Shown in pieces: positions 5,843 through 43,954 of a DNA stretch of 64,000 bases (the stretch's first letter is position 1; each line of letters opens with the position of its first letter). Source of the DNA: Polaribacter vadi (GTDB lineage Bacteria > Bacteroidota > Bacteroidia > Flavobacteriales > Flavobacteriaceae); NCBI RefSeq assembly GCF_001761365.1, contig NZ_CP017477.1, forward strand, positions 1,014,501 through 1,078,500, written 5' to 3'. The notes beneath the pieces are model-generated. The model did not search any database. It was not told the origin of the DNA and worked only from the letters and a program-made list of their open reading frames with translations. The position numbers were made by a program, and so were the translations under genes.

Positions 5843-6328
5843 TTAACTATTTAATAACTTGTTTGTTGATATGATATATCTATTATAAATTAATTCAGAT
5901 TTTAAAAGATTTGCTAACTTAAATTCAGTATTCTTTTCATTATGAATTATTATATGTCCATTTTCTAATTCTGTAGTTTCTGAATTATTTATAATTTTAT
6001 CGTAATTTATAAGAGAGTCCTTATGATTGGCAACAATAATATTTTCATTAGCTAACATACTTTTTTGATTAGTAAGTTTATCGAAAACAAACACTTTTGC
6101 TTCAATTTTAGCATATCCTCTATATTTTTTAAGTAGTGTAGTTTCAACGTAAAAATTTAACTCAGAAGATGGTCTGCAACCAAACTCTTGTGCTGAAAGC
6201 ATTTTAACTATTTTTTCTTTTTCTAAACTTTTTAATAAAACTGGATTTGGATTAGTATGAGCATTTTTAAATGCAAAAAGACCAATTAACAAAACTGTAA
6301 CTGCTAAAGTATTTTTTATTTTTTTCAT
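5843..6328 (-). CDS. Small exported protein of unknown function
   Basis: The 161-residue protein has a clear N-terminal signal peptide (MKKIKN then a hydrophobic core ending at LFAFKNAH, about residue 24). No lipobox cysteine is present. The mature part mixes beta-prone stretches with a Cys51-containing segment (EFGCRPS) and matches no family I can name. It is the last gene read leftward below the 71-residue gene array, but 376 bp and a decayed terminator separate it from that array, so it is probably its own unit ending at the hairpin 5785-5818. Confidence 0.65.
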   Translation of the reverse strand: MKKIKNTLAVTVLLIGLFAFKNAHTNPNPVLLKSLEKEKIVKMLSAQEFGCRPSSELNFYVETTLLKKYRGYAKIEAKVFVFDKLTNQKSMLANENIIVANHKDSLINYDKIINNSETTELENGHIIIHNEKNTEFKLANLLKSELIYNRYIISTNKLLNS

Positions 6329-6704
6329 AATTAAGGGTATTTTTTAATAAAGTGTTTCAAACACACAACAAAAATAAAGGTTTTAAGAGCAACTAAATTT
6401 AAATTTCGACTATTGATCCAAATGTTTAGACGAACAAATATTTAGTTTCGGTAAAGAATAATTAATAACTTTTTTAAAAATAATTTTTATCATTTTTCCT
6501 TCTCCTAAAACTCATAAAACAATCAAATTCAATGTTTTAAATAATATTTTTGATACACAATTTGTTAATATATTTTTTTATGCTGAAAGTTGTAAGTTTT
6601 ACATTTCTATGAAACTTTTTTACAACTTAGGGATGCAAAACCATATAAATAGTTCTTACTATTTATAATTTTATATTCGGGATTATTGGGATGTATATTG
6701 ATTC
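6329..6704. other. Intergenic stretch with decayed terminator at the left edge of the array
   Basis: No ORF is apparent. Around 6584-6630 lies a degenerate version of the array hairpin (GTTTTACATTTCTATGAAAC core with a T run), which probably marks the leftmost, diverged end of the tandem array and terminates array copy 1. Confidence 0.5.
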
Positions 6705-6920
6705 TTAATGTGCAAATCTTACGATCGTTCTTAAAAACTCTCTTACTAAAGAAATGCTTACAATTAAAAAGGGAAAGAAACAGGTAAAAAATACCATTAC
6801 ATTCAAACCATCAAATAAGGTATCGATGTAAGACATTTCCATTAAGTAGTTTCCTGAAGAGTATAAACCTAGAGAACAGATTAATACTATAATAATGCGT
6901 TTTATATTATTCGCTTTCAT
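6705..6920 (-). CDS. Array copy 1: 71-residue two-helix membrane protein
   Basis: The protein is predicted to span the membrane twice: helix 1 about residues 8-24 after a basic start (KANNIKR), helix 2 about residues 39-59, then a basic tail (VREFLRTIVRFAH). The ends suggest both termini face the cytoplasm. A single cysteine sits in each helix (C15, C47). The family is unknown to me. Copy 1 has Asp33, Val43 and Val67, the same residues as copies 7 and 8. It is the last copy in the direction of transcription, and its downstream region differs from both linker types of the other copies. Confidence 0.8.
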   Translation of the reverse strand: MKANNIKRIIIVLICSLGLYSSGNYLMEMSYIDTLFDGLNVMVFFTCFFPFLIVSISLVREFLRTIVRFAH

Positions 6921-7027
6921 AATTGGGGGGAATTAATGATTATCTAATATACTGTAAAGATAAGAACTAATTAAAGGTTCTGAAATAAGCAATATCCTTA
7001 ATAATCATAAATCATATAAAAAAAAAA

Positions 7028-7047
7028 GCCTCACATTGCTGTGAAGC
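7028..7047 (-). terminator. Array terminator after copy 2
   Basis: GCCTCACA (7028-7035) and TGTGAAGC (7040-7047) around TTGC; an A run on the plus-strand left side gives the U tract of the leftward transcript. Confidence 0.8.
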
Positions 7048-7155
7048 TTTTTTGAAATTTAGGGGTCACTAAAATAAAAATAGTGTGTTACTATTATACT
7101 TTAATATTCGGGGTAATTGTATGTTGATGAAAAGTGGGGTATCTAAATAATATTC

Positions 7156-7371
7156 TTAATGTGCAAATCTTACGATCGTTCTTAAAAACTCTCTTACTAA
7201 AGAAATGCTTACAATTAAAAAGGGAAAGAAACAGGTAAAAAATATCATTACATTCAAACCATCAAATAAGGTATCGATGTAAGACATTTCCATTAAGTAG
7301 TTTCCTGAAGAGTATAAACCTAGAGAACAGATTAATACTATAATAATGCGTTTTATATTATTCGCTTTCAT
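7156..7371 (-). CDS. Array copy 2: 71-residue two-helix membrane protein
   Basis: It differs from copy 1 in protein only at residue 43 (Ile instead of Val, one base change). The leader with the C6 run directly before AATTATG is intact, and the short type of 3' linker with the hairpin 7028-7047 follows. Predicted topology is as for copy 1: two helices, basic ends. Confidence 0.8.
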   Translation of the reverse strand: MKANNIKRIIIVLICSLGLYSSGNYLMEMSYIDTLFDGLNVMIFFTCFFPFLIVSISLVREFLRTIVRFAH

Positions 7372-7485
7372 AATTGGGGGGAATTAATGATTATCTAATA
7401 TAATGTAAAGATAAGACACATTTAAAGGTTCTGAAATAAGCAATATCCTTAAAAACAAGAAATCAATAAAAAAAACAAAAAAAAA

Positions 7486-7505
7486 GCTTCACATTGCTGT
7501 GAAGC
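7486..7505 (-). terminator. Array terminator after copy 3
   Basis: Perfect GCTTCACA / TGTGAAGC stem around TTGC with long flanking A and T runs. Confidence 0.85.
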
Positions 7506-7613
7506 TTTTTTGAAATTCAGGGGTCACTAAAATAAAAATAGTGTGTTACTATTATACTTTAATATTCAGGGTAATTGTATGTTGATGAAAAGTGGGGTAT
7601 CTAAATAATATTC

Positions 7614-7829
7614 TTAGTGTGCAAATCTTACGATCGTTCTTAAAAACTCTCTTACTAAAGAAATACTTACAATTAAAAAGGGAAAGAAACAGGTAAAAAA
7701 TATCATAACATTCAAACCATCAAATAAGGTATCGATGTAAGACATTTCCATTAAGTAGTTTCCTGAAGAGTATAAACCTAGAGAACAGATTAATACTATA
7801 ATAATGCGTTTTATATTATTCGCTTTCAT
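7614..7829 (-). CDS. Array copy 3: 71-residue two-helix membrane protein
   Basis: The protein equals copy 2 (Ile43), with a few silent changes. Its leader is 4 bp shorter between the start codon and the upstream conserved block than in copies 1 and 2, showing that leaders drift by small deletions while the protein stays fixed. Short linker type, hairpin 7486-7505 downstream. Confidence 0.8.
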   Translation of the reverse strand: MKANNIKRIIIVLICSLGLYSSGNYLMEMSYIDTLFDGLNVMIFFTCFFPFLIVSISLVREFLRTIVRFAH

Positions 7830-7940
7830 AATTGGGGGGAATTAATGATTCTAATATACTGTAAAGATAACACACAACTATAGGTTCTGAAATAAGCAAT
7901 ATCCTTAAAAACAATAAATCATTTAAAAAACAAAAAAAAA

Positions 7941-7958
7941 CTTCACATTGCTGTGAAG
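7941..7958 (-). terminator. Array terminator after copy 4
   Basis: CTTCACA / TGTGAAG stem around TTGC, preceded on the plus strand by nine A. Confidence 0.8.
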
Positions 7959-8121
7959 CTTTTTTGGAATTTAGGGGTTACTAAAATAAAAATAGTGTGT
8001 ACTATTTATACTTTAATATTCGGGGTTTAGTTTTAAAATTTAGGGGTGTATTATCTTATATACTATTAATTTAATAGTATTCGTTTTTTTTTAAAGTTGA
8101 TGAATGCTTACCTAACTATTG

Positions 8122-8337
8122 TTAATGTGCAAATCTTACGATCGTTCTTAAAAACTCTCTTACTAAAGAAATGCTTACAATTAAAAAGGGAAAGAAACAG
8201 GTAAAAAATACCATTACATTCAAACCATCAAATAAGGTTTCGATGTAAGACATTTCCATTAAGTAGTTTCCTGAAGAGTATAAACCTAGAGAACAGATTA
8301 ATACTATAATAATGCGTTTTATATTATTCGCTTTCAT
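8122..8337 (-). CDS. Array copy 4: 71-residue two-helix membrane protein
   Basis: This is the only copy with Glu33 in place of Asp33, a conservative change in the loop between the helices; residue 43 is Val. The 3' linker is the longer type, with an ATACTATTAATTTAATAGTAT-like inverted repeat near 8060-8085 before the hairpin at 7941-7958. Confidence 0.8.
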   Translation of the reverse strand: MKANNIKRIIIVLICSLGLYSSGNYLMEMSYIETLFDGLNVMVFFTCFFPFLIVSISLVREFLRTIVRFAH

Positions 8338-8442
8338 AATTGGGGGGAATTAATGATTATCTAATATACTGTAAAGATAAGACACATTTAAAGGTTCTGA
8401 AATAAGCAATATCCTTAAAAACAATAAATCAATAAAAAAAAA

Positions 8443-8462
8443 GCCTCACATTACTGTGAAAC
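8443..8462 (-). terminator. Array terminator after copy 5
   Basis: GCCTCACA / TGTGAAAC, weakened stem around TTAC, A run on the left. Confidence 0.7.
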
Positions 8463-8622
8463 TTTTTTGGAATTTAGGGGTTACTAAAATAAAAATAGTG
8501 TGTACTATTTATATTTTAATATTCGGGGTTTTATTTTAAAATTTAGGGATGTATTCTCCTTTATACTATGAATTATATAGTATTCGTTTTTTTTAAGTTG
8601 ATGAATGCTGATCTAACTATTG

Positions 8623-8838
8623 TTAGTGTGCAAATCTTACGATCGTTCTTAAAAACTCTCTTACTAAAGAAATGCTTACGATTAGAAAGGGAAAGAAACA
8701 GGTAAAAAATATCATTACATTCAAACCATCAAATAAGGTATCGATGTAAGACATTTCCATTAAGTAGTTTCCTGAAGAGTATAAACCTAGAGAACAGATT
8801 AATACTATAATAATGCGTTTTATATTATTCGCTTTCAT
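8623..8838 (-). CDS. Array copy 5: 71-residue two-helix membrane protein
   Basis: Ile43 variant, identical in protein to copies 2 and 3. It shares with copy 7 a paired silent change near 8680 (CGATTAGAAAG on the plus strand instead of CAATTAAAAAG), so sequence has been exchanged between non-adjacent copies. Long 3' linker, hairpin 8443-8462. Confidence 0.8.
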   Translation of the reverse strand: MKANNIKRIIIVLICSLGLYSSGNYLMEMSYIDTLFDGLNVMIFFTCFFPFLIVSISLVREFLRTIVRFAH

Positions 8839-8944
8839 AATTGGGGGGAATTAATGATTATCTAATATACTGTAAAGATAAGACACATTTAAAGGTTCTG
8901 AAATAAGCAATATCCTTAAAAACAATAAATCAATAAAAAAAAAA

Positions 8945-8964
8945 GCCTCACATTACTGTGAAAC
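8945..8964 (-). terminator. Array terminator after copy 6
   Basis: Same weakened GCCTCACA / TGTGAAAC form as after copy 5, consistent with these two units being sister duplicates. Confidence 0.7.
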
Positions 8965-9142
8965 TTTTTTGGAATTTAGGGGTTACTAAAATAAAAATAG
9001 TGTGTACTATTTATATTTTAATATTCGGGGTTTTATTTTAAAATTTAGGGATGTATTCTACTTTATACTATGAATTATATAGTATTCATTTTTTTTAAGT
9101 TGATGAATGCTGATCTAACTAATGTTGCTGATCTAACTATTG

Positions 9143-9358
9143 TTAATGTGCAAATCTTATGATCGTTCTTAAAAACTCTCTTACTAAAGAAATGCTTACA
9201 ATTAAAAAGGGAAAGAAACAGGTAAAAAATACCATAACATTCAACCCATCAAATAAGGTATCGATGTAAGACATTTCCATTAAGTAGTTTCCTGAAGAGT
9301 ATAAACCTAGAGAACAGATTAATACTATAATAATGCGTTTTATATTATTCGCTTTCAT
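9143..9358 (-). CDS. Array copy 6: 71-residue two-helix membrane protein
   Basis: Val43 variant and the only copy with Ile67 (RTIIRFAH). The pre-start run is five C rather than six. Its long 3' linker contains an extra ~17-bp duplication of GCTGATCTAACTAATGTT type just after the stop codon, which explains its 520-bp period. Hairpin 8945-8964 follows. Confidence 0.8.
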   Translation of the reverse strand: MKANNIKRIIIVLICSLGLYSSGNYLMEMSYIDTLFDGLNVMVFFTCFFPFLIVSISLVREFLRTIIRFAH

Positions 9359-9471
9359 AATTAGGGGGAATTAATGATTAACTAATATAATGTAAAGATA
9401 AGAACTAATTAAAGGTTCTGAAATAAGCAATATCCTTAAAAACAATAAATCATTTAAAAAGTCAAGAAAAA

Positions 9472-9491
9472 GCTTCACATTGTTGTGAAGC
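9472..9491 (-). terminator. Array terminator after copy 7
   Basis: GCTTCACA / TGTGAAGC stem around TTGT. Confidence 0.8.
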
Positions 9492-9598
9492 TTTTTTGAA
9501 ATTTAGGGGTTACTAAAATAAAAATAGTGTGTACTATTATACTTTAATATTTGGGGTAATTCTATGTTGATGAAAAGTGGGGTATCTAAATAATATTC

Positions 9599-9814
9599 TT
9601 AGTGTGCAAATCTTACGATCGTTCTTAAAAACTCTCTTACTAAAGAAATGCTTACGATTAGAAAGGGAAAGAAACAGGTAAAAAATACCATTACATTCAA
9701 ACCATCAAATAAGGTATCGATGTAAGACATTTCCATTAAGTAGTTTCCTGAAGAGTATAAACCTAGAGAACAGATTAATACTATAATAATGCGTTTTATA
9801 TTATTCGCTTTCAT
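9599..9814 (-). CDS. Array copy 7: 71-residue two-helix membrane protein
   Basis: Protein identical to copies 1 and 8. The pre-start run is five C as in copy 6, and the silent CGATTAGAAAG block matches copy 5. Short 3' linker with hairpin 9472-9491. Confidence 0.8.
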   Translation of the reverse strand: MKANNIKRIIIVLICSLGLYSSGNYLMEMSYIDTLFDGLNVMVFFTCFFPFLIVSISLVREFLRTIVRFAH

Positions 9815-9927
9815 AATTAGGGGGAATTAATGATTAACTAATATACTGTAAAGATAAGGCACATTTAAAGGTTCTGAAATAAGCAATATCCTTAAAAACA
9901 ATAAATCATTTAAAAAACAAAAAAAAA

Positions 9928-9945
9928 CTTCACATTGCTGTGAAG
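9928..9945 (-). terminator. Array terminator after copy 8
   Basis: CTTCACA / TGTGAAG stem around TTGC with an A run on the left, same form as after copy 4. Confidence 0.8.
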
Positions 9946-10054
9946 CTTTTTTGAAATTCAGGGGTCACTAAAATAAAAATAGTGTGTTACTATTATACTT
10001 TAATATTCGGGGTAATTGTATGTTGATGAAAAGTGGGGTTTCTAAATAACATTC

Positions 10055-10270
10055 TTAATGTGCAAATCTTACGATCGTTCTTAAAAACTCTCTTACTAAA
10101 GAAATGCTTACAATTAAAAAGGGAAAGAAACAGGTAAAAAATACCATTACATTCAAACCATCAAATAAGGTATCGATGTAAGACATTTCCATTAAGTAGT
10201 TTCCTGAAGAGTATAAACCTAGAGAACAGATTAATACTATAATAATGCGTTTTATATTATTCGCTTTCAT
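10055..10270 (-). CDS. Array copy 8: 71-residue two-helix membrane protein (first in transcription direction)
   Basis: Protein identical to copies 1 and 7. Its leader keeps the conserved block and a TATCTTTA box about 45 bp before the ATG. The hairpin upstream of it (10375-10403) is degenerate, marking the array edge next to the SprF-like gene that ends at 10434. Short 3' linker, hairpin 9928-9945. Confidence 0.8.
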   Translation of the reverse strand: MKANNIKRIIIVLICSLGLYSSGNYLMEMSYIDTLFDGLNVMVFFTCFFPFLIVSISLVREFLRTIVRFAH

Positions 10271-10433
10271 AATTGGGGGGAATTAATGATTAACTAATAT
10301 ACTGTAAAGATAACACACAATTAAAGGTTCTGAAATAAGCAATATCCTTAAAAACAAGAAATCATTTAAAAAATAGAAGAATTCAAATTATTATGAAGCT
10401 TTAATCAATCTTAAATTTTTAAATGATATCAAC

Positions 10434-11432
10434 TTAAAAAGAAGAAATACACTTGTATCTATTTAAAGCTCTAATATTGATATCAAAATCATAAGAAACA
10501 GAAAACTCATGAATACCACCTGTATTTAATAGGTTTGTTGTATTAAAATCATACGAATAACCAAATCTAAAACCTTGCCATCTAAAACCTACAAATGTAC
10601 TTACAGCGCTTACTATTGAAGATGTAAATTCATTTTTTATAGGTGTTAAACCAGCAGTAATTCCTAAAGAAAATTGATTTTCAAAAACATATTGTCCTCC
10701 AACATCTAATCGATTATAAGGTCCTTGCATCATGAAATTAGAAAGTAGATACACTTTACTTTTTCGATTAAATAATGTTCTTTGATTTTCTAAAAAAGGA
10801 AGATAATATTTTGCATGCACTGACAAAAACATATTTAATGGAGCATTTCCATTTTCAGTTAAAGAAATATTAGGTTTATTTAAATGTCTTACTGTAATCC
10901 CAATCCAACTATCAGCATTGTTAAATAGCAAAGAAGAACTAAAATCGAAAAAATTACGCTGACTACGAAGTATAGCAGGATCTATACTTGATGTATTTAT
11001 TGTATAGGTATTCAAATTAATTTGGTCTCCTAATAATAAATTTTGAAAACCATAATTTTTCATTCCAAAACCGGCCACAATACTTGGTCTAAAAAACCAG
11101 GTATCATTTAATTGAAATGCCATTGAATAATTAAAATTAACTTGATTATATGTATAGCTTGAAATATTTTCTGTTTGATTTAGGAAACTAACACCAACTC
11201 CTATTTTATAACGCTCTAACCAAGTATCAAAAAAACCATAATTAGAGTTTGTTTTAAATGTGGAGTTCCTCCATTGAGATCTATATAAAGAGCCAACTTT
11301 GGTACTTCTTAAAGAACCCGTAAATGAAGAGTTTAAAGTCTCTGGCACCAAAAAAGCTTGCGAAAAAATAACATCTTGTGCATAACTAACCATACTTGTA
11401 AAAACAAAAAATAGAATAAGAACTCTCTTCAT
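10434..11432 (-). CDS. PorP/SprF family type IX secretion-associated outer membrane protein
   Basis: The 332-residue protein has a signal peptide (MKRVLILFF... cleaved after SYAQ, about residue 18) followed at once by DVIFSQAF, the typical PorP/SprF start. The rest is alternating beta strands with Asn/Gly turns as in an outer-membrane barrel. Family members are encoded next to large T9SS cargo carrying a type B C-terminal signal and help secrete or anchor that cargo. Here the ATG follows the stop of the 1830-residue adhesin by 1 bp, so the two are translationally linked and almost certainly function as a pair. Confidence 0.88.
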   Translation of the reverse strand: MKRVLILFFVFTSMVSYAQDVIFSQAFLVPETLNSSFTGSLRSTKVGSLYRSQWRNSTFKTNSNYGFFDTWLERYKIGVGVSFLNQTENISSYTYNQVNFNYSMAFQLNDTWFFRPSIVAGFGMKNYGFQNLLLGDQINLNTYTINTSSIDPAILRSQRNFFDFSSSLLFNNADSWIGITVRHLNKPNISLTENGNAPLNMFLSVHAKYYLPFLENQRTLFNRKSKVYLLSNFMMQGPYNRLDVGGQYVFENQFSLGITAGLTPIKNEFTSSIVSAVSTFVGFRWQGFRFGYSYDFNTTNLLNTGGIHEFSVSYDFDINIRALNRYKCISSF

Positions 11433-11433
11433 A

Positions 11434-14400
11434 TTATTTTATTAATGTAAATGGTAAAGTTTCAATGATTTCACCTTTGTAAAAAGTAAGCCCTTTTATA
11501 ACAATCACATAATTCCCATTTTCGGCTGGCAAACCTTTTATAAATCCATCCCAGCCCTTAAAATTTAAACTCTTTTCATAATAAACTGTGGCACCCCAAG
11601 TAGTATAAATTGTTATTTCTATTTCTGAAAAACCTTCATGAACGGGTTTCATCCTATCATTATAACCATCTCCATTAGGAGTAAAGGAATTTGGGGTTAT
11701 TAAAATATAGCCTTTGGTAATATGTACAATTCTTTCTAAAACATATGTGCATCCAACTTCATATTCCACAGTATATATAATGGTATAAAAACCTTCTTTG
11801 GTATAGGTATAAGTTGGATTTTCTTCATGTATAGTTGGACTCCCATCACCAAAATTCCAAGTGATTTTACGAATATCTCCTGTTGATAAACTTGTAAACT
11901 GTATAGGATCTTTGATGGATAGTAAGTTGTAATTATCAAAAGCAAAAGAACTATACTCAAAATCTGTAGCGCCTATTGTTGGTACACTAACATTAAAAGA
12001 TTTTTGTCGGGAACAACCTGCACTGTCTGTAATGGTTACTGAATAAACATCATTATCTGAAGTAGTCATTATATGATTGTCTACACCAGAGATTGTTCCT
12101 GAAGACCATGAATAGGTATAAGGTGAAAAACCTCCACTACCATTTGCGGTTAATTGTTTGCTAGCTGTTCTTAAATCACAATCTTTAATAATTACCTCAT
12201 CAACCAAAATATCTAAGGGTTCTTGCCTAAAAATAGTGTATTGCTCTGTAAAAACACAGCCTACTGCATCCGTAATTTGAACTGAATACACTCCTGCTCC
12301 AATATTATTTAAGTCTTCTGAAGTTTCATTTGTATTCCATAAAAAAGAGTATGGCTCTACACCTCCAGAGATTTCTAAATTGATACTTCCACTATTTTCA
12401 ATAGCACAATCTGTGGCATCTATCACAGTTTCAACAACTACAATTGGTGCTGGATTCGAAATAATAAAAGTTTCTTTTATCGGGCATTGTGTTGGATTGC
12501 TATCTGTTATTGTAACAGTATAGGTACCTGCTGCAAGATTACTTCTTTGAGCTGCATCTGTAACACCATCATTCCAAACGATCGAAATTGGAGCAATACC
12601 TCCAGTTAAATTCAAATTAATAGAAGCATCATTTTCTGAGTTACATGTTATTGGTGATGTTGTAGGTTCAATATAAAAAATAGCTTCGTTAATTACTATG
12701 GATGTTTGTTCTGTACAATTATTAGCATCTGTAACATTTATTGTATATCTATCTGGAGCTAAATTTGATAATGATAAATCTGTTGCTGAATTACTCCAAG
12801 TAAAAGTATAGGGTGCCTTTCCTCCTGTTAAAGTTACATCAATAGTTCCATCGCTTTTTTGGTAACAACTTTCATCTGTTTTTACAACATCAATCTTAAT
12901 TTGATCTGCTTGATTTATAGTAAAAGTAGCATTTGTTGTACAACCCAAATCGTCAATTACATGTAAAGTGTAAACTCCTGCCATTAAATTATCAATATTT
13001 TTTGAAGTACTCGTATATCCATTTGGTCCAGACCAAGAATACAAATAATCAAAAGCACCTGAAGATATTGCTGTTTTTACACCTCCAGAAACAGCAACTT
13101 CCAAAGAACCAGCTGCATCTCCAAAACATAGAATATCCTTTTTATCAAGCAATGTAATTTTTATTTCTTCTGGCTCTGTAAGAACAAAGCTTGTTGAAAT
13201 TGTACAGTTATTTTGATCGATAACTTCTAATGTATAATTTCCTTTTGTTAACGTATGTTGATTTTTTTGGTTAGATATAATTCCACTACCATTTGTGGTT
13301 GTCCAATTATAAGTGTAGGGCATTGTGCCTCCATTCATAGTAATTTCTATGTTACCATTATTGCCATTAAAACACGACACATTTTTTTCTATATCTTTAG
13401 TAATTTCTAATATATCTGGTTGTGTAATTGTAAAATCTTCTGTTGTTCTAAATCCTTCTTTATCTTCAATAGTAATGGTATACAGCCCTGCTATTAAATT
13501 TGATATGGAACTTTCGGATGAAGAAAAACCATTTGGCCCAGACCAAGAAACATTATAAGGATTGCCAGTATCAAAAGGAACACCTCCTATTATATTAGTA
13601 GTGATAGCTCCATCATTAGCTTGAAAACAACTAGCAGGAACAACGACAGCATTTGCATTGATACTCGCAAGTACAGTAATTTCTAACATAAAAGAATTCC
13701 CTGTACAATCTGCTGTTGCAGGCGTTATCAAATACGTAACTTTTATAGGTGAACTTGTTGTGTTCTCTAACGTTTGACTTATGAGTTGCTGAGGAGTTGT
13801 TGCGTCAGAAGCGCCAATAATCGCATCTGTAGGATTAAAGTTTGGAGCTGTCCATGTATAAAACGTATTGTTAGGTATGGTATTTCCAGAAACTGAATTT
13901 GGGCTGAATATAAATGCTTCATCACTATTAATAGTTATTGTTGCATTCGCAATAACAGGTGTTTCATTTACGATAACACTTGCTGAATTAGAAATAAGGG
14001 TAGCACAATCGCCTCTAGAAAAATAAATTTCTACATAATAATACATTGTTCCAACAGCATTTGTTGGTGGATTGTAGGAATCTGTAGTTTCATCAACTAA
14101 AGGATTTCCATCAGCAGTTGAATTCATAGTATTTGAGAACCATTGGTACCTTACCTCTACTCCTGTTGCTCCTGAATAGGTAACTTCTAACGATTTTGAA
14201 ATATCATCAATGCAATAATTTTGTACAGTTTCTATGGGATTAATTACTGGTTGTTCTAGTACATTTACCCTAGCAGTATTTGAAACAATTTGAGTACAGG
14301 AACCAGATGAAAAAGAAATTTCAACATAATAAAATAATGCTCCCACATTTTCAGTTGGTGGGTTATAAGTATTAGTGTTTGCATCAGAAATTGGAATTCC

Positions 14401-16926
14401 TCCAAAATTTGTATCTGTAGTATTGTAAAACCATTGATAGGTTGCAGTTCCTGTTCCGTTTTCAAAAACCACTTCTAAAAGCGTTGCAACACTATTTTTA
14501 CAAACTTCTGATGATAAAGGTTGTGTTGTAATTTTTGGAGTTGGGTTTACAGTAACTACAAAATCCACAGCATCTCCAATACAATCATTATTCTCAGGTA
14601 TTACTGTATAAGTGACTTGACCATTTGTATTTTGACTATTGATTAAAGTTTGAGTTGGTATTGTATTTGTACTTCCATTGGCTATAAAACCAGTAATACC
14701 AGTAGAAGCCACAGCAGACCAAGAAAATGTTGTATTTGCAATACTCGATGTCAAATCAATCGCTACTGTATTTTGATTGGAACATATTTCTTGAGTTAAA
14801 TTCGTGTTGGTAATCACTGGCTTTTCAAATACTTCAAAAGTTTGGGTTGCTAAATTAGATAGGCCACATTCAGATGTAATTTGTAAGGTTACCTCGTAAA
14901 TTCCAGGAGCATCGTACACAATATTTCCAGGATCTAAGGTATTTGCTGTTGATGGATTCCCTCCTGTAAATGTCCAATTATAGGTACTACCAGATTCATT
15001 AGAAGTACAATTTTGAATAGTTGCTGTTGGATTTATCGTAGGATTATCACAGGCATTATCAATAGGATCAATACTTACTATTGCTGGTTTTTTAACTTCA
15101 ATTATTTTGGAGTTTGTTTCAATGCCACAACCTGTAATTATTTTTTGTGTTAGTGTATATAAGCCAGCATTCGTAAATAAAAATTGTGGGTTTTCCGAGT
15201 TTTGGTCTGTTCCATTGGTAAAAGCCCAAGCTCCAACTGTTTCACAATTGCTTGCAGCATATGTAACTTCCCACTCATAACTAGCAGTACTGCATACTGT
15301 ATTTTCTGTGGTTGTATTTGTTGCTGCTATATTTAAGGGAATACAGCCTGCCTCTTCATCAATCGTAAAAGTTGGCGTATTTACTTCTTCTATACAAATA
15401 TTCTTTGTAAAAACATCTGAGCCACATTGTGTTGCTACTGTTAACGTAACTGTATAAGTACCAGAATTTGTATATTGATGTGATTGGTTTGTTGCTGTAT
15501 TTGCACCATTATCGTTTACGATGGTTCCATCACCAAAATCCCAAATAAAGTTTGCAGCTTTGTTACAATCGTCATTTTCACCAATCAAAGATGTATTTAT
15601 AAATGCTACATCACTATTGATACAAGCAATTTCTTGGGACTCAAATTCAGCTATTGATGGCGCTAATATTTTAATATTATTGAGGGTTCGTTCAGTTTTT
15701 GAACATAAATTTTCTATAGTTAACGTTGCTATGAATTCGCCATTAGGTTCACTACAACTTCCTTCATCATAAACATGACTAAGTTTGCTGTTATTTTGAA
15801 TTTCAGCATGTGTGTATGTTTCTATGGATGATCCATCACCAAAATCAACACTATACATAGTATCTGGCCAATTCGTTTGCCAGTTTATAATTTCAAAGTC
15901 TATTTCTGCATCCGTTAAACATACATTATTGGTAGTTTCAAGACTTGTAATATCTCCTACAGGATGGCTAATGTTTATAACTTGATACTCCAATTCGTTA
16001 TAACACCCATTTTTACCAAGACCTCTAACTTTCATTGCATATACACCTAACTCTGCATAGGTATGCTCAATTGGAAATTCAATAGAATCTTCTGTAGTTC
16101 CATCACCCCAATCTATAGAATAGTTATCCACACAAGGAGATTTTGAGTTATTACCTACATTTACGGTAAATTCAGGATTGGCAATTGTGGCATTATCACA
16201 ATTATTAAAATCGTTGGCATCTATATCGAAAAATTCAAGATCTGGTTTTGGTATCACTGTTATAAATTTTGCAACAGAACTAAAACAACCATTTTCGTCA
16301 GTAACCAATAATGTAACTCCAAACGTTCGTTCTGCTGTAGAGCAGCCAAAATACTCAAAAGAATGAGAGGGGTTTTCTAAATCCGACTGTACATTATCAT
16401 TAAAATCCCATAGATAAGTAAGCTCTCCAGCACCAGTGGCTTCTGCTGTAAACTGAATAGGTTCACCAGCACAAATCGATGTTTGATCGAATGTAAATTC
16501 AACCAAAGGCACAGCGTTCACAAGAATACTGACTTCTTGATCTGCTATTTGAGTAACTTGGGAATTAGCATCTGTAACACTCGTAAGTTTATAATTAAAA
16601 GTACCCGCAAAAACTTCTCTAAAGTTAATTTCTGCGATTCCTGCATTGTTAGAGGTAATGCTTTTTTCTGCACCACCATTAATGGTGTACTTAAAAAGAT
16701 AAGGAGCTGTGCCTTCTGAGCCTTCAAGGGTAATGATCATAATTTCTCTTTCACAAATTTCATTACTGTCGGCTTTTATAGTTACTTTAGGGTTGTAAGC
16801 AAAAGCTCCTTTTACATCCGTGTTTTGATGGGCATACGATTTCAACAGCATGCAACCAAGCACTATGACAGCAAAAAGTATAAGGTTCTTATTGCGTAAA
16901 ACGGGTAAATGCTGTTTAAACTTCAT
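11434..16926 (-). CDS. Giant T9SS-secreted adhesin with PKD domains, SprB repeats and type B (gliding-associated) C-terminal domain
   Basis: The 1830-residue protein starts with an N-terminal signal (hydrophobic residues ~14-30). PKD-like domains follow, recognisable by W-(D/N)-F-x-D-(G/N) near residue 172 and by DWGDGT and WDFGDG further on, then Ig-like segments. At least six SprB-type repeats occupy roughly residues 1110-1620; each has a C-(F/Y/N/A) start, an (I/L)xGG-xxP(Y/F) core and an AG-x-Y-x-(I/V)-x-(I/V)-xD end. A last PKD (WNFGDG, ~1690) precedes the C-terminal domain PNSFTPNGDGYND (~1743) of the CHU_C/type B sorting family. It is a probable surface adhesin for gliding or attachment, exported with the SprF-like partner downstream. 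Confidence 0.93.
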   Translation of the reverse strand: MKFKQHLPVLRNKNLILFAVIVLGCMLLKSYAHQNTDVKGAFAYNPKVTIKADSNEICEREIMIITLEGSEGTAPYLFKYTINGGAEKSITSNNAGIAEINFREVFAGTFNYKLTSVTDANSQVTQIADQEVSILVNAVPLVEFTFDQTSICAGEPIQFTAEATGAGELTYLWDFNDNVQSDLENPSHSFEYFGCSTAERTFGVTLLVTDENGCFSSVAKFITVIPKPDLEFFDIDANDFNNCDNATIANPEFTVNVGNNSKSPCVDNYSIDWGDGTTEDSIEFPIEHTYAELGVYAMKVRGLGKNGCYNELEYQVINISHPVGDITSLETTNNVCLTDAEIDFEIINWQTNWPDTMYSVDFGDGSSIETYTHAEIQNNSKLSHVYDEGSCSEPNGEFIATLTIENLCSKTERTLNNIKILAPSIAEFESQEIACINSDVAFINTSLIGENDDCNKAANFIWDFGDGTIVNDNGANTATNQSHQYTNSGTYTVTLTVATQCGSDVFTKNICIEEVNTPTFTIDEEAGCIPLNIAATNTTTENTVCSTASYEWEVTYAASNCETVGAWAFTNGTDQNSENPQFLFTNAGLYTLTQKIITGCGIETNSKIIEVKKPAIVSIDPIDNACDNPTINPTATIQNCTSNESGSTYNWTFTGGNPSTANTLDPGNIVYDAPGIYEVTLQITSECGLSNLATQTFEVFEKPVITNTNLTQEICSNQNTVAIDLTSSIANTTFSWSAVASTGITGFIANGSTNTIPTQTLINSQNTNGQVTYTVIPENNDCIGDAVDFVVTVNPTPKITTQPLSSEVCKNSVATLLEVVFENGTGTATYQWFYNTTDTNFGGIPISDANTNTYNPPTENVGALFYYVEISFSSGSCTQIVSNTARVNVLEQPVINPIETVQNYCIDDISKSLEVTYSGATGVEVRYQWFSNTMNSTADGNPLVDETTDSYNPPTNAVGTMYYYVEIYFSRGDCATLISNSASVIVNETPVIANATITINSDEAFIFSPNSVSGNTIPNNTFYTWTAPNFNPTDAIIGASDATTPQQLISQTLENTTSSPIKVTYLITPATADCTGNSFMLEITVLASINANAVVVPASCFQANDGAITTNIIGGVPFDTGNPYNVSWSGPNGFSSSESSISNLIAGLYTITIEDKEGFRTTEDFTITQPDILEITKDIEKNVSCFNGNNGNIEITMNGGTMPYTYNWTTTNGSGIISNQKNQHTLTKGNYTLEVIDQNNCTISTSFVLTEPEEIKITLLDKKDILCFGDAAGSLEVAVSGGVKTAISSGAFDYLYSWSGPNGYTSTSKNIDNLMAGVYTLHVIDDLGCTTNATFTINQADQIKIDVVKTDESCYQKSDGTIDVTLTGGKAPYTFTWSNSATDLSLSNLAPDRYTINVTDANNCTEQTSIVINEAIFYIEPTTSPITCNSENDASINLNLTGGIAPISIVWNDGVTDAAQRSNLAAGTYTVTITDSNPTQCPIKETFIISNPAPIVVVETVIDATDCAIENSGSINLEISGGVEPYSFLWNTNETSEDLNNIGAGVYSVQITDAVGCVFTEQYTIFRQEPLDILVDEVIIKDCDLRTASKQLTANGSGGFSPYTYSWSSGTISGVDNHIMTTSDNDVYSVTITDSAGCSRQKSFNVSVPTIGATDFEYSSFAFDNYNLLSIKDPIQFTSLSTGDIRKITWNFGDGSPTIHEENPTYTYTKEGFYTIIYTVEYEVGCTYVLERIVHITKGYILITPNSFTPNGDGYNDRMKPVHEGFSEIEITIYTTWGATVYYEKSLNFKGWDGFIKGLPAENGNYVIVIKGLTFYKGEIIETLPFTLIK

Positions 16927-42442: not shown

Positions 42443-43327
42443 ATGTTTAAAAATGTCGGAGAAAGTACACTTGATGAAATAACGCTTGAAAAAGGCTTTT
42501 ATGTTCTTCATTTTCAGAACGAAAGCAATGAGGTTTTAAATTTTGAGCGCGAAATTAATAGCACTTTTATACAAATGCACTTTTGTTTACGAGGTAATTC
42601 TAAATTTTTATTTAATAATGGTTCTTATTCTTTTGATGTTTTAGACAATAGATCTATTCTATTATATAACCCACAGAGAACTTTACCTATTAATTTAGAA
42701 ATTCAACCAAAAACAACCTTGCTTTCTATCTTAATTTCTATCGAAAAATTCCATTCTTTATTTTCTAAGGAATCTGGTTATATTCCTTTCTTAAGCAACG
42801 AAAATAGCAACAAAAAATATTATGATGATGCAGAAATAAAACCAACAGTTAGTATTGTTTTGCAACAAATTATCAACTCAAATATTAATAGTTCTATAAG
42901 AGAACTATATGTAAAAGGTAAAGTTTACGAATTATTGAGTTTACATTTTCAAAAAGATGAAACTGCAGAAGGTGAATATTGTCCTTTTTTGGTTGATGAA
43001 CAAAATGTTCTTAAAATTAGAAAAGCGAAGGAAATTATCATCTCAAGAATGGCTGAACCACCAAGTTTACAAGAATTAGCGAATGAGATTGGTTTGAACA
43101 TCAAAAAATTAAAAGAAGGTTTTAAACAAATTTATGGAGATACTGTCTATAGTTTTCTGTTCGATTATAAAATGGAACATTCAAGAAGATTGCTAGAAAC
43201 GAATCAATATAATGTAAATGAAGTTGGTTTGCAGGTTGGTTATAGCACCTCAAGTCATTTTATTGCTGCTTTTAAAAAGAAATTCGGCACAACACCGAAA
43301 AAATATGTAATGAGTTTACAGAGTTAG
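42443..43327 (+). CDS. AraC/XylS family transcriptional regulator
   Basis: The 294-residue protein has an N-terminal cupin-like sensing half (about 1-180, with QMHFCLRG and ILLYNP) and a C-terminal double helix-turn-helix (about 195-292). The first helix pair includes PSLQELANEIGLNIKKLKEGFKQIYG and the second NVNEVGLQVGYSTSSHFIAAFKKKFGTTP, the AraC signature. It is divergent from hemA, so control of the heme operon in response to a small ligand or iron state is the simplest guess. Its stop codon TAG lies inside the first unit of a heptamer repeat. Confidence 0.88.
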   Translation: MFKNVGESTLDEITLEKGFYVLHFQNESNEVLNFEREINSTFIQMHFCLRGNSKFLFNNGSYSFDVLDNRSILLYNPQRTLPINLEIQPKTTLLSILISIEKFHSLFSKESGYIPFLSNENSNKKYYDDAEIKPTVSIVLQQIINSNINSSIRELYVKGKVYELLSLHFQKDETAEGEYCPFLVDEQNVLKIRKAKEIIISRMAEPPSLQELANEIGLNIKKLKEGFKQIYGDTVYSFLFDYKMEHSRRLLETNQYNVNEVGLQVGYSTSSHFIAAFKKKFGTTPKKYVMSLQS

Positions 43328-43406
43328 AAGTTAGAAGTTAGAAGTTAGAAGTTAGAAGTTAGAAGTTAGAAGTTAGAAGTTAGAAGTTAGAAGTTAGAAG
43401 TTAGAA
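43323..43406 (+). repeat. Heptanucleotide tandem repeat, GTTAGAA x 12
   Basis: Twelve perfect copies of GTTAGAA (84 bp) begin within the end of the AraC-type gene and finish 13 bp before the SpoU start. Each unit contains TAG; since 7 leaves remainder 1 on division by 3, any frame entering the tract meets a stop within 21 bp, whatever the copy number. Confidence 0.97.
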
Positions 43407-43419
43407 AAAAATATAGAAT

Positions 43420-43935
43420 TTGAAACAGCTTTCGCACGAAAACGTAGAAAATACGCAACAAAAGTTTCCGATAACTATTGTTTGTGATGCAATTAGAACA
43501 CCTGAAAACATTGGAATGTGTTTTAGAATTTCAGAAAGTTTTGGAGTGGAGAAAATTTATTTTCACGAAAATTCGCCATCCGTAGAAAACAGAAAAGTTA
43601 TCAATACTGCAAGAAATACAATCAACCAAATTGCTCATGATTATTATAACGATTTTAACTCGCTAATTAACAATTTAAAAGACGAAGGCAATACAATTAT
43701 TGGTATAGAAATTACTGATAAAAGCATCAATATTCAAGATTTTAATTTTAAAAATCATGAAAAAATCGTACTACTTTTGGGTAGTGAAAGAAATGGAATT
43801 GAAAATGTAGATTTAGTAGATTTTACAATTTCAATACCCATGTATGGCAGAAATTCGAGCATGAATGTAGTGCATAGTTTGGCAATTATGCTGTATGAAG
43901 TTACGAATCAGATGTCAGTAAGCAGTAAGCAGTAA
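43420..43935 (+). CDS. SpoU/TrmH family RNA 2'-O-methyltransferase
   Basis: The 171-residue protein has the three SpoU motifs of the SPOUT knot: motif 1 DAIRTPENIGMCFR (about 21-34, with the catalytic Arg), motif 2 VLLLGSERNGIE (about 114-125) and motif 3 ISIPMYGRNSSMNVVHSLAIMLYE (split here: IPMYGR, SSMNV, SLAIMLYE). It methylates a ribose in tRNA or rRNA; the exact site is unknown. Start is TTG at 43420; no ATG is available upstream because the GTTAGAA tract blocks all frames. The last six codons come from the CAGTAAG repeat. Confidence 0.9.
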   Translation: MKQLSHENVENTQQKFPITIVCDAIRTPENIGMCFRISESFGVEKIYFHENSPSVENRKVINTARNTINQIAHDYYNDFNSLINNLKDEGNTIIGIEITDKSINIQDFNFKNHEKIVLLLGSERNGIENVDLVDFTISIPMYGRNSSMNVVHSLAIMLYEVTNQMSVSSKQ

Positions 43936-43950
43936 GCAGTAAGCAGTAAG
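43916..43950 (+). repeat. Heptanucleotide tandem repeat, CAGTAAG x 5
   Basis: Five perfect CAGTAAG units overlap the 3' end of the SpoU gene and supply its stop codon (TAA in the third unit). The next gene starts 5 bp after the tract (ATG at 43955), so copy number also sets the spacing between the two genes. Confidence 0.95.
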
Positions 43951-43954
43951 CAAA

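Follow-up and report, generated by a model that had tools for sequence, protein, structure and literature searches.

Several known bacterial systems bear comparison with the locus discussed here. The Csr/Rsm circuits are built on GacS/GacA, RsmY/RsmZ and CsrA, with GGA as their motif; I know of no Csr system in Bacteroidota, a phylum with few Shine-Dalgarno signals. The 6C RNA of Actinobacteria (RF01066) has two hairpins with C-rich loops, RNAIII together with hld is a dual-function RNA, and the regulator FixJ consists of receiver and GerE domains. In Listeria, the multicopy small RNAs (sRNAs) LhrC1-5 are under the LisRK two-component system, and their C-rich loops pair with lapB (PMC4132741). 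A report on Bacteroides describes a multicopy sRNA family, FopS, that binds near start codons, along with the RNA-binding protein RbpB (PMC11697453), and the FixJ site of Sinorhizobium is given as TAAGTAATTTCCCTTA (PMC4999443). The subject of this article is an array of eight tandem, head-to-tail open reading frames (ORFs), each encoding the same 71-amino-acid (aa) protein on the minus strand, found in the ORF listing of a window of 64,000 nucleotides (nt), meaning the whole stretch of Polaribacter vadi DNA that was analysed, on the chromosome NZ_CP017477.1 (a single contig of 3.81 Mb, 99.97% complete, with the window at C1:1014501-1078500).

The analysis is sequence-based throughout, and transcription, regulator binding, titration and protein function are inferred from it; "72-aa gene" is used as the label of the 71-72-aa family to which the array protein belongs, the window copies being 71 aa long. 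The key feature, which lay beyond what the sequence-only first reading could see, is a promoter and a C-tract common to the array and to ORF-less RNA units at two-component loci, and this combination of a common promoter with a similar C-run points to a shared, apparently undescribed RNA-level control circuit. Membership of the array in the predicted regulon of the two-component system is strongly supported, and from the co-occurrence of promoter and kinase the array is most likely its amplified output. The whole explanation, an amplified output module that would also be controlled by titration through the C-tract, is the one I prefer, with moderate confidence.

A promoter linked to a two-component system

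In all eight units the distance from the start of a FixJ-like palindrome, TAAGGATATTGCTTAT, to the -7 box is exactly 38 nt, and this offset is also seen in eight further member rows of the family (L036, L047, L048, L049, and two each at L041 and L042; L and G numbers are handles for loci and genomes). The exact element plus -7 box has 11 matches in the own genome, namely the eight array units, one ORF-less RNA with C-rich loops (C-loop RNA) and two receiver genes, and the promoters of these receiver genes, one in each of two cassettes, were not used in building the pattern. At up to one mismatch there are 13 matches versus seven for the reversed control; a second C-loop RNA and one further site carry the element with one mismatch.

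The first of these C-loop RNAs adjoins a cassette of kinase, NarL-type regulator and receiver. The kinase, of 2004 aa, combines a multi-helix VUPS membrane domain at its N-terminus with several PAS domains, HisKA_3 and HATPase_c; the regulator joins a receiver to a GerE domain, and its partner consists of a receiver only. The kinase of the second own-genome cassette (1594 aa) is without VUPS. In both cassettes the promoter element lies just upstream of the receiver-only gene (G000:C1:2703314-2703358 and 1722765-1722809), which suggests autoregulation. Also, the likeness of the element to the Sinorhizobium site fits a NarL/FixJ-type regulator as the predicted binding protein.

Across the genus, a kinase orthologue is present at E<=1e-60 in 27 of 97 Polaribacter genomes (up to 21 candidates scored per genome). 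A stricter promoter pattern has 72 sites in 25 of these genomes, all 25 kinase-positive, so that it occurs in 25/27 kinase-positive versus 0/70 kinase-negative genomes (Fisher 3e-21), and its reversed control has no site in the 97. Sites in 19 of the genomes had served to derive this pattern; among the other 78 it is found in 6/8 kinase-positive versus 0/70 kinase-negative ones (P 1e-7). By position, the kinase is no more than 6 kb away from 55 of the 72 sites, another 11 lie within 300 nt of a 72-aa gene, and the six unlinked ones precede lipoprotein-like ORFs with CCCCC leaders (G057, G019), an ORF of 172 aa whose leader has CCCC (G028) and ORFs without a C-tract (G031, G045, G015). Where 220 nt of downstream sequence could be read (67 distinct sites), 36 sites lack an ORF but have a run of four Cs (C4), 18 have an ORF with a C-tract and one has neither; a C4 run follows 59 of the 67 and a G4 run three. 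The cassettes of G028 and G020 encode a protein of about 170 aa with CCCCC leaders plus one of 143-144 aa, with N-termini that look signal-like by eye only. At L246 (G028:C1:2939000-2947500) the 144-aa protein is present in four near-identical tandem copies with the same promoter and a CCCTC leader, a second case of tandem amplification of a coding output.

Family members without the FixJ-like element (L034, L035, L039, L040 and L043-L046) have another upstream motif, CACTTATTCC or close variants of it, partly as repeats spaced by about 21 nt (by eye), and perhaps respond to a different regulator.

The C-tract in leaders and RNA loops

Every array unit has a run of five or six Cs right before the start codon (8/8). 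Across 40 member rows, which include three of the eight window units and some near-identical copies, the 20 nt before the ATG contain at least CCC in 37, at least CCCC in 28 and at least CCCCC in 20, compared with 18, 3 and 0 for 203 long ORFs of the same DNA. The pattern AATTCCCCCN0-6ATG has eight occurrences genome-wide, all of them in array leaders, and six of the 22 C6 matches listed in the genome are array leaders. I consider it likely that the C-tract is a functional RNA element. A conserved hairpin around it was tried as a family-wide feature and rejected, as it is confined to part of the family. A search for a G6-bearing partner RNA was equally unrewarding, since only two of 14 C6/G6 places outside the array were in no long open frame and neither was fruitful; the genome's only C6 runs outside both the array and long open frames, at G000:C1:1604830 and 1935478, are possible further C-loop or G-rich RNAs.

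The same motif is found in the ORF-less units. In four relatives (L036, L047, L048, L049) the 72-aa gene lies inside the kinase cassette itself, flanked by units that have the same promoter block and no ORF; the terminator hairpin at the end of most of these units has a loop rich in C. These units are about 75 nt long and form two hairpins with C-rich loops. A pattern search of the own genome led to the RNA at C1:2704145-2704220 (78 nt, two hairpins with CCCCC in each loop, -13.2 kcal/mol, z -4.47), and R1, a covariance model built from six ORF-less RNAs and run across the genus, gave the second at C1:1722244-1722314 (E 2.6e-6); a third own-genome match, C1:2106490, is weak (E 0.076). In G050 four near-identical ORF-less units stand in tandem at a spacing of about 188 nt. 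Over 34 distinct rows, C4 or longer is present in loop 1 of 28, in loop 2 of 24 and in both loops of 19, and GGGG in none.

Matches to R1 at E<=5e-4, a cut set after the R1 results were known, occur in 20 of the 97 genomes, and all 20 are kinase-positive (in G043 the RNA match is on a different contig). Among 20 loci fetched from R1 matches, 18 have kinase, regulator or receiver homologues and the two weakest have none; the weak matches L167 and L168, without kinase, were treated as chance. A refined model, R2, also gave matches outside the genus, in nine genomes, but these were bare terminators without C4 loops or kinase and were dropped, so that in this sample and under strict filters only Polaribacter has the cassette together with C-loop RNA. 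No Rfam family overlaps the RNA units, either in five loci scanned at E<=1 (four matches below the gathering threshold, the best mir-208 at E 0.0009) or in six others at the gathering threshold. A literature search on sRNAs of Polaribacter or Flavobacteriaceae with two-component or C-rich features gave nothing relevant in the titles and opening lines of abstracts returned.

The C-loop RNAs and the 3' regions of the mRNAs may alternatively be antisense regulators, like LhrC, pairing with G-rich sites at start codons, which would make the leader C-tract a relic and the small ORF a passenger. The Listeria report (PMC4132741) is matched in several respects: loops rich in C, that of the terminator among them, arrays of multiple copies, and control by a two-component system. 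In addition, the sense strand of the 3' 200 nt of 39 members has 28 C4 runs versus one G4 run, some of these stretches including the next unit's leader. However, G runs near start codons are rare, with G4 in the upstream regions of one of the 203 long ORFs, and a relic would not explain why the C-tract persists next to the start codon where the promoter element is missing and where the genome has no kinase, or why it also precedes some unrelated regulon proteins; I therefore regard the antisense explanation as rather unlikely.

The membrane protein and its eight copies

The sequence-only reading had described eight almost identical ORFs, differing only at residues 33, 43 and 67, in a two-helix membrane protein of no familiar family, repeated at about 0.5 kb as separate monocistronic units with a leader and terminator each, and nearly all of this was borne out. 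The amino-acid changes are indeed restricted to residues 33 (D/E), 43 (V/I) and 67 (V/I), with silent variation at codons 38, 41, 52, 53, 55 and 71; the period is 451-520 nt; AlphaFold2 predicts two long helices, residues 3-28 and 35-70 (mean predicted local distance difference test score 89.6, predicted template modelling score 0.68); and separate transcription of amplified units holds at the level of sequence. Clean intrinsic terminators are found in seven of the eight units, unit 8 (6705-6920) having a degenerate remnant only. The 3' untranslated region (UTR) of unit 1 contains three CCCC tracts and those of units 2-7 two or three apiece, and that of unit 8 has none. Nine Rfam matches at E<=1 between 5800 and 11400 of the window are all below the gathering threshold and mostly on terminators. 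Coordinates are collected in Table 1.

Table 1. Features of the array and its adjoining gene (window coordinates)
Feature	Position	Strand	Basis or remark
Whole array, eight tandem monocistronic units	6705..10350	-	ORF, repeat, promoter and terminator analysis
Unit 1 promoter	10305..10350	-	FixJ-like element 10335-10350, -7 box 10305-10312
Unit 1 C-tract (C6)	10275..10280	-	before start codon
Unit 1 ORF, 71-aa two-helix membrane protein	10055..10270	-	ORF listing; structure prediction
Unit 1 3'UTR, three CCCC tracts	9961..10038	-	unit analysis
Unit 1 terminator	9919..9952	-	unit analysis
Unit 2 promoter	9849..9894	-	element 9879-9894, -7 box 9849-9856
Unit 2 C-tract (C5)	9820..9824	-	before start codon
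Unit 2 ORF, 71 aa	9599..9814	-	ORF listing
Unit 2 terminator	9467..9497	-	unit analysis
Unit 3 promoter	9393..9438	-	element 9423-9438, -7 box 9393-9400
Unit 3 C-tract (C5)	9364..9368	-	before start codon
Unit 3 ORF, 71 aa, V67I	9143..9358	-	ORF listing, copy comparison
Unit 3 terminator	8935..8970	-	unit analysis
Unit 4 promoter	8873..8918	-	element 8903-8918, -7 box 8873-8880
Unit 4 C-tract (C6)	8843..8848	-	before start codon
Unit 4 ORF, 71 aa, V43I	8623..8838	-	ORF listing, copy comparison
Unit 4 terminator	8434..8468	-	unit analysis
Unit 5 promoter	8372..8417	-	element 8402-8417, -7 box 8372-8379
Unit 5 C-tract (C6)	8342..8347	-	before start codon
Unit 5 ORF, 71 aa, D33E	8122..8337	-	ORF listing, copy comparison
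Unit 5 terminator	7932..7965	-	unit analysis
Unit 6 promoter	7862..7907	-	element 7892-7907, -7 box 7862-7869
Unit 6 C-tract (C6)	7834..7839	-	before start codon
Unit 6 ORF, 71 aa, V43I	7614..7829	-	ORF listing, copy comparison
Unit 6 terminator	7477..7511	-	unit analysis
Unit 7 promoter	7406..7451	-	element 7436-7451, -7 box 7406-7413
Unit 7 C-tract (C6)	7376..7381	-	before start codon
Unit 7 ORF, 71 aa, V43I	7156..7371	-	ORF listing, copy comparison
Unit 7 terminator	7018..7053	-	unit analysis
Unit 8 promoter	6955..7000	-	element 6985-7000, -7 box 6955-6962
Unit 8 C-tract (C6)	6925..6930	-	before start codon
Unit 8 ORF, 71 aa	6705..6920	-	ORF listing
161-aa gene adjoining array	5843..6328	-	relative in 6/25 loci compared, window counted

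Neither Pfam, NCBIfam nor PADLOC has a family matching the 71-aa protein at E<=1; its best PHROGs match is a function-unknown entry (E 0.055), the single profile match among solved structures (E 0.077) is not meaningful, and 35 family members reach at best E 0.057 in Pfam and 0.011 in NCBIfam, with one member each. Counting copies in related strains, a check that the earlier reading had proposed, a single-sequence search found relatives in 13 of the 97 genomes and a 35-row profile extended the family to 19; a profile search of 397 genomes of the wider family returned the own genome and two weak matches only, one of them with internal stops. Members are mostly 66-75 aa, with some up to 88 among those listed; M1, G23, F44 and F45 never vary among them, and D37, F49 and P50 hardly do. 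Besides the eight array copies the P. vadi chromosome has one 42%-identical paralogue (C1:3689957-3690169), and G062 has arrays of three and four copies. This ninth own-genome copy belongs to a sub-family (L038, L050-L058) in which the 72-aa gene is single or paired, at loci that mostly hold what I take to be genes resembling N-acetylhexosaminidase, sugar kinase and nucleotidyltransferase, some also with a sodium/solute symporter; these gene clusters are absent from L052.

The likeness to Ldr-kind type I toxin-antitoxin loci that the same reading had raised, in which a cis-antisense RNA represses a toxin that is small and hydrophobic, fared less well. A small hydrophobic two-helix protein, tandem repeats of about 0.5 kb and long untranslated parts all speak for it. 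Against it, a Bacteroidota-type promoter with up to two mismatches, TTTC-N19-TATCTTTA, the one type scanned, is present in sense orientation in 8/8 units and on the opposite strand at one site in one unit. Such a scan is weak alone: about 13 two-mismatch sites turn up when the sequence is shuffled, and the units are duplicates of one another. The sense promoter is accepted because it is conserved across loci. No conserved opposite-strand promoter of this type was found, and the array is to that extent unlike Ldr loci; in addition, the sense promoters belong to a putative activator regulon and other members adjoin what I take to be a sugar-metabolism locus, leaving a toxin array very improbable. 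The reading's other suggestion of a membrane stress peptide is possible.

A recently amplified neutral gene, also proposed at the outset, or a selfish tandem amplification with no role in dosage, would account for near-identical copies and mosaic spacers, the pattern that unequal exchange should leave. There is hardly any variation in coding parts and leaders, and the 3' spacers sort into types; units 2 and 4 have silent variants in common, yet their spacers differ, which suggests exchange between copies. However, the promoter, the C-tract and the protein family are all met again at loci that have diverged, and other arrays exist (three plus four copies in G062, and the four ORF-less units at ~188 nt in G050); amplification recurs in units with these features. 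Three of nine variable codons in the array are nonsynonymous versus about 79% expected at random (P 0.004), a small test, and other pairs have no such purifying signal: window versus L035 gives 15 synonymous and 24 nonsynonymous codons, not strongly purifying at this longer distance, and L034 versus L039 gives 0 and 3. Neutrality fits poorly and is quite improbable.

The 161-aa gene next to the array has no Pfam or NCBIfam family, and its relative in L051 is distant from the 72-aa gene. It was considered as a partner of the array and dropped: its occurrence tracks common flanking genes (L041, L042, L053, L054), and no link is claimed. Immediately upstream of the array (10434-16926), and sharing its strand, are genes for a PorP/SprF-family protein and an 1830-aa protein with a sub-threshold type B sorting signal of the type IX secretion system. 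Elsewhere in the window, heptamer arrays (AGTTAGA x12 at 43322-43406 and CAGTAAG x5 at 43916-43952) overlap or adjoin the stop codons at the 3' ends of neighbouring ORFs, 42443-43327 and 43420-43935, presumably AraC-like and RNA-methyltransferase-like, respectively.

A candidate circuit and its known counterparts

The mechanism I favour would begin with the membrane-anchored multi-PAS histidine kinase activating the NarL/FixJ-type regulator, which is predicted to bind the site that resembles a palindrome (TAAG...YTAT), at 38 nt on the upstream side of the -7 box. This promoter would drive three kinds of transcript: the receiver-only gene, the C-loop RNAs of about 75 nt, and short mRNAs, many with a C-run before the start codon and here encoding eight copies of the two-helix protein. 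Since the C-tract has the same sense in RNA loops and mRNA leaders, the two cannot pair with each other through it, and a putative common trans factor is the simplest reason for keeping a same-sense motif in both, which is why titration is favoured. A putative C-tract-binding factor would keep leaders untranslated by blocking the start codon; the kinase pathway would yield message and decoy together, the C-loop RNAs drawing off the factor until its saturation allows translation. Eight gene copies would raise output, and tandem RNA copies elsewhere would raise the decoy level. Such Csr/Rsm-like titration by a common factor is, by analogy, a tentative proposal.

The role of the protein is a shade more doubtful. 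Judging by its helices and by the exported look of its co-targets, it may act in the membrane within an envelope response, possibly with feedback on the kinase. In a more specific form it would exert feedback on the sensor kinase as MgrB does on PhoQ, with copy number setting the strength of feedback, and a small membrane protein in the predicted regulon of a kinase with an N-terminal multi-helix VUPS domain, encoded within the kinase cassette at L036, L047, L048 and L049, is what this would call for. However, 17 of the 27 kinase-positive genomes are without the 72-aa gene and nine of the 19 gene-positive genomes are without the kinase, so that I consider such a modulator improbable.

Several results weigh against an amplified, titrated output of the two-component system. 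The association of 72-aa gene and kinase is moderate (10/9/17/61 over 97 genomes, P 0.011), and with the element in 0/9 member rows examined from the kinase-negative genomes, the gene is not bound to the two-component system; even in kinase-positive genomes 15 of 28 member rows lack the element. In eight of those nine kinase-negative rows a C4 tract is retained without the promoter element, so the function of the C-tract appears independent of the kinase, and 12 of the 67 regulon sites have an ORF without a C4 tract (C4 in 18 of 30 with an ORF). A hairpin with an AU stem around the leader C-tract is seen in part of the family only (its score is equalled in six of 2000 permutations, and its energies range from 0 to -2 kcal/mol). 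Among RNA units the element is found by a loose pattern in 38 of 42 (the L161 match being chance, with the true element found by the stricter pattern), falling to 33 of 42 at the exact 38-nt offset, and a neighbour's element may be counted in arrays. R1 matches at E<=0.1 occur in 51 of the 97 genomes, making weak matches mostly uninformative. Covariation over 34 distinct rows lies above all 500 shuffles on five measures in an alignment fitted to the structure, and the six-row start is weaker, with 18 (paired cells), 56 (double-change pairs), 5 (double-change cells), 75 (pair types) and 3 (score) of 500 shuffles reaching the observed value. Lastly, no C-tract-binding protein turned up, though no search was aimed at one.

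If the circuit is real, a start-codon C-tract common to mRNAs and RNA units beside a two-component system would amount to a new post-transcriptional code, the finding would suggest why tiny membrane-protein genes and RNA units undergo tandem amplification, and promoter plus C-tract would provide a profile for reading the regulon from genomes.

Turning to known systems, the likeness to Csr/Rsm lies in a NarL-type regulator, decoy-like RNAs with a loop-repeated motif, and the same motif at mRNA start regions; one motif, CCCCC, is indeed found in both RNA loops and start-codon leaders here. It differs in that the motif is CCCCC rather than GGA, and in that the mRNAs share the promoter of the RNA units. 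The 6C RNA likewise has two hairpins with C-rich loops, and its model (RF01066) has no match in five loci at E<=1 or in six others at the gathering threshold. The regulator here has the receiver and GerE domains of FixJ, and the FixJ site TAAGTAATTTCCCTTA resembles TAAGTAATTTGCTTAT and TAAGGAAATTACCTAT (PMC4999443), binding here being predicted only. MgrB of Enterobacteria is also a small membrane protein in a two-component regulon, differing in its 47 aa from an array protein with two helices. FopS resembles the present RNAs as a multicopy sRNA family in Bacteroidota and differs in belonging to another genus, "C-rich" appearing nowhere in the main text of the paper and no two-component cassette in the excerpt consulted (PMC11697453). 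LhrC is similar in having several copies with C-rich loop motifs, including one in the terminator loop, as found here in loop and terminator loop alike, and in expression that needs a two-component system and an upstream promoter region (PMC4132741), a dependence predicted here from sequence; it differs in phylum, in that co-regulated mRNAs here have the same C-tract at their start codons, and in that G-rich upstream regions are rare here. A bolder possibility, which I hold as tentatively as the role of the protein, is that Polaribacter runs its own version of a Csr/Rsm-type circuit with another RNA motif. The two-component system would produce tandem C-loop decoys that titrate a putative CCCCC-binding factor away from the start codons of mRNAs sharing their promoter, with amplification of decoys in some species and of coding output in others, including the array of this window.

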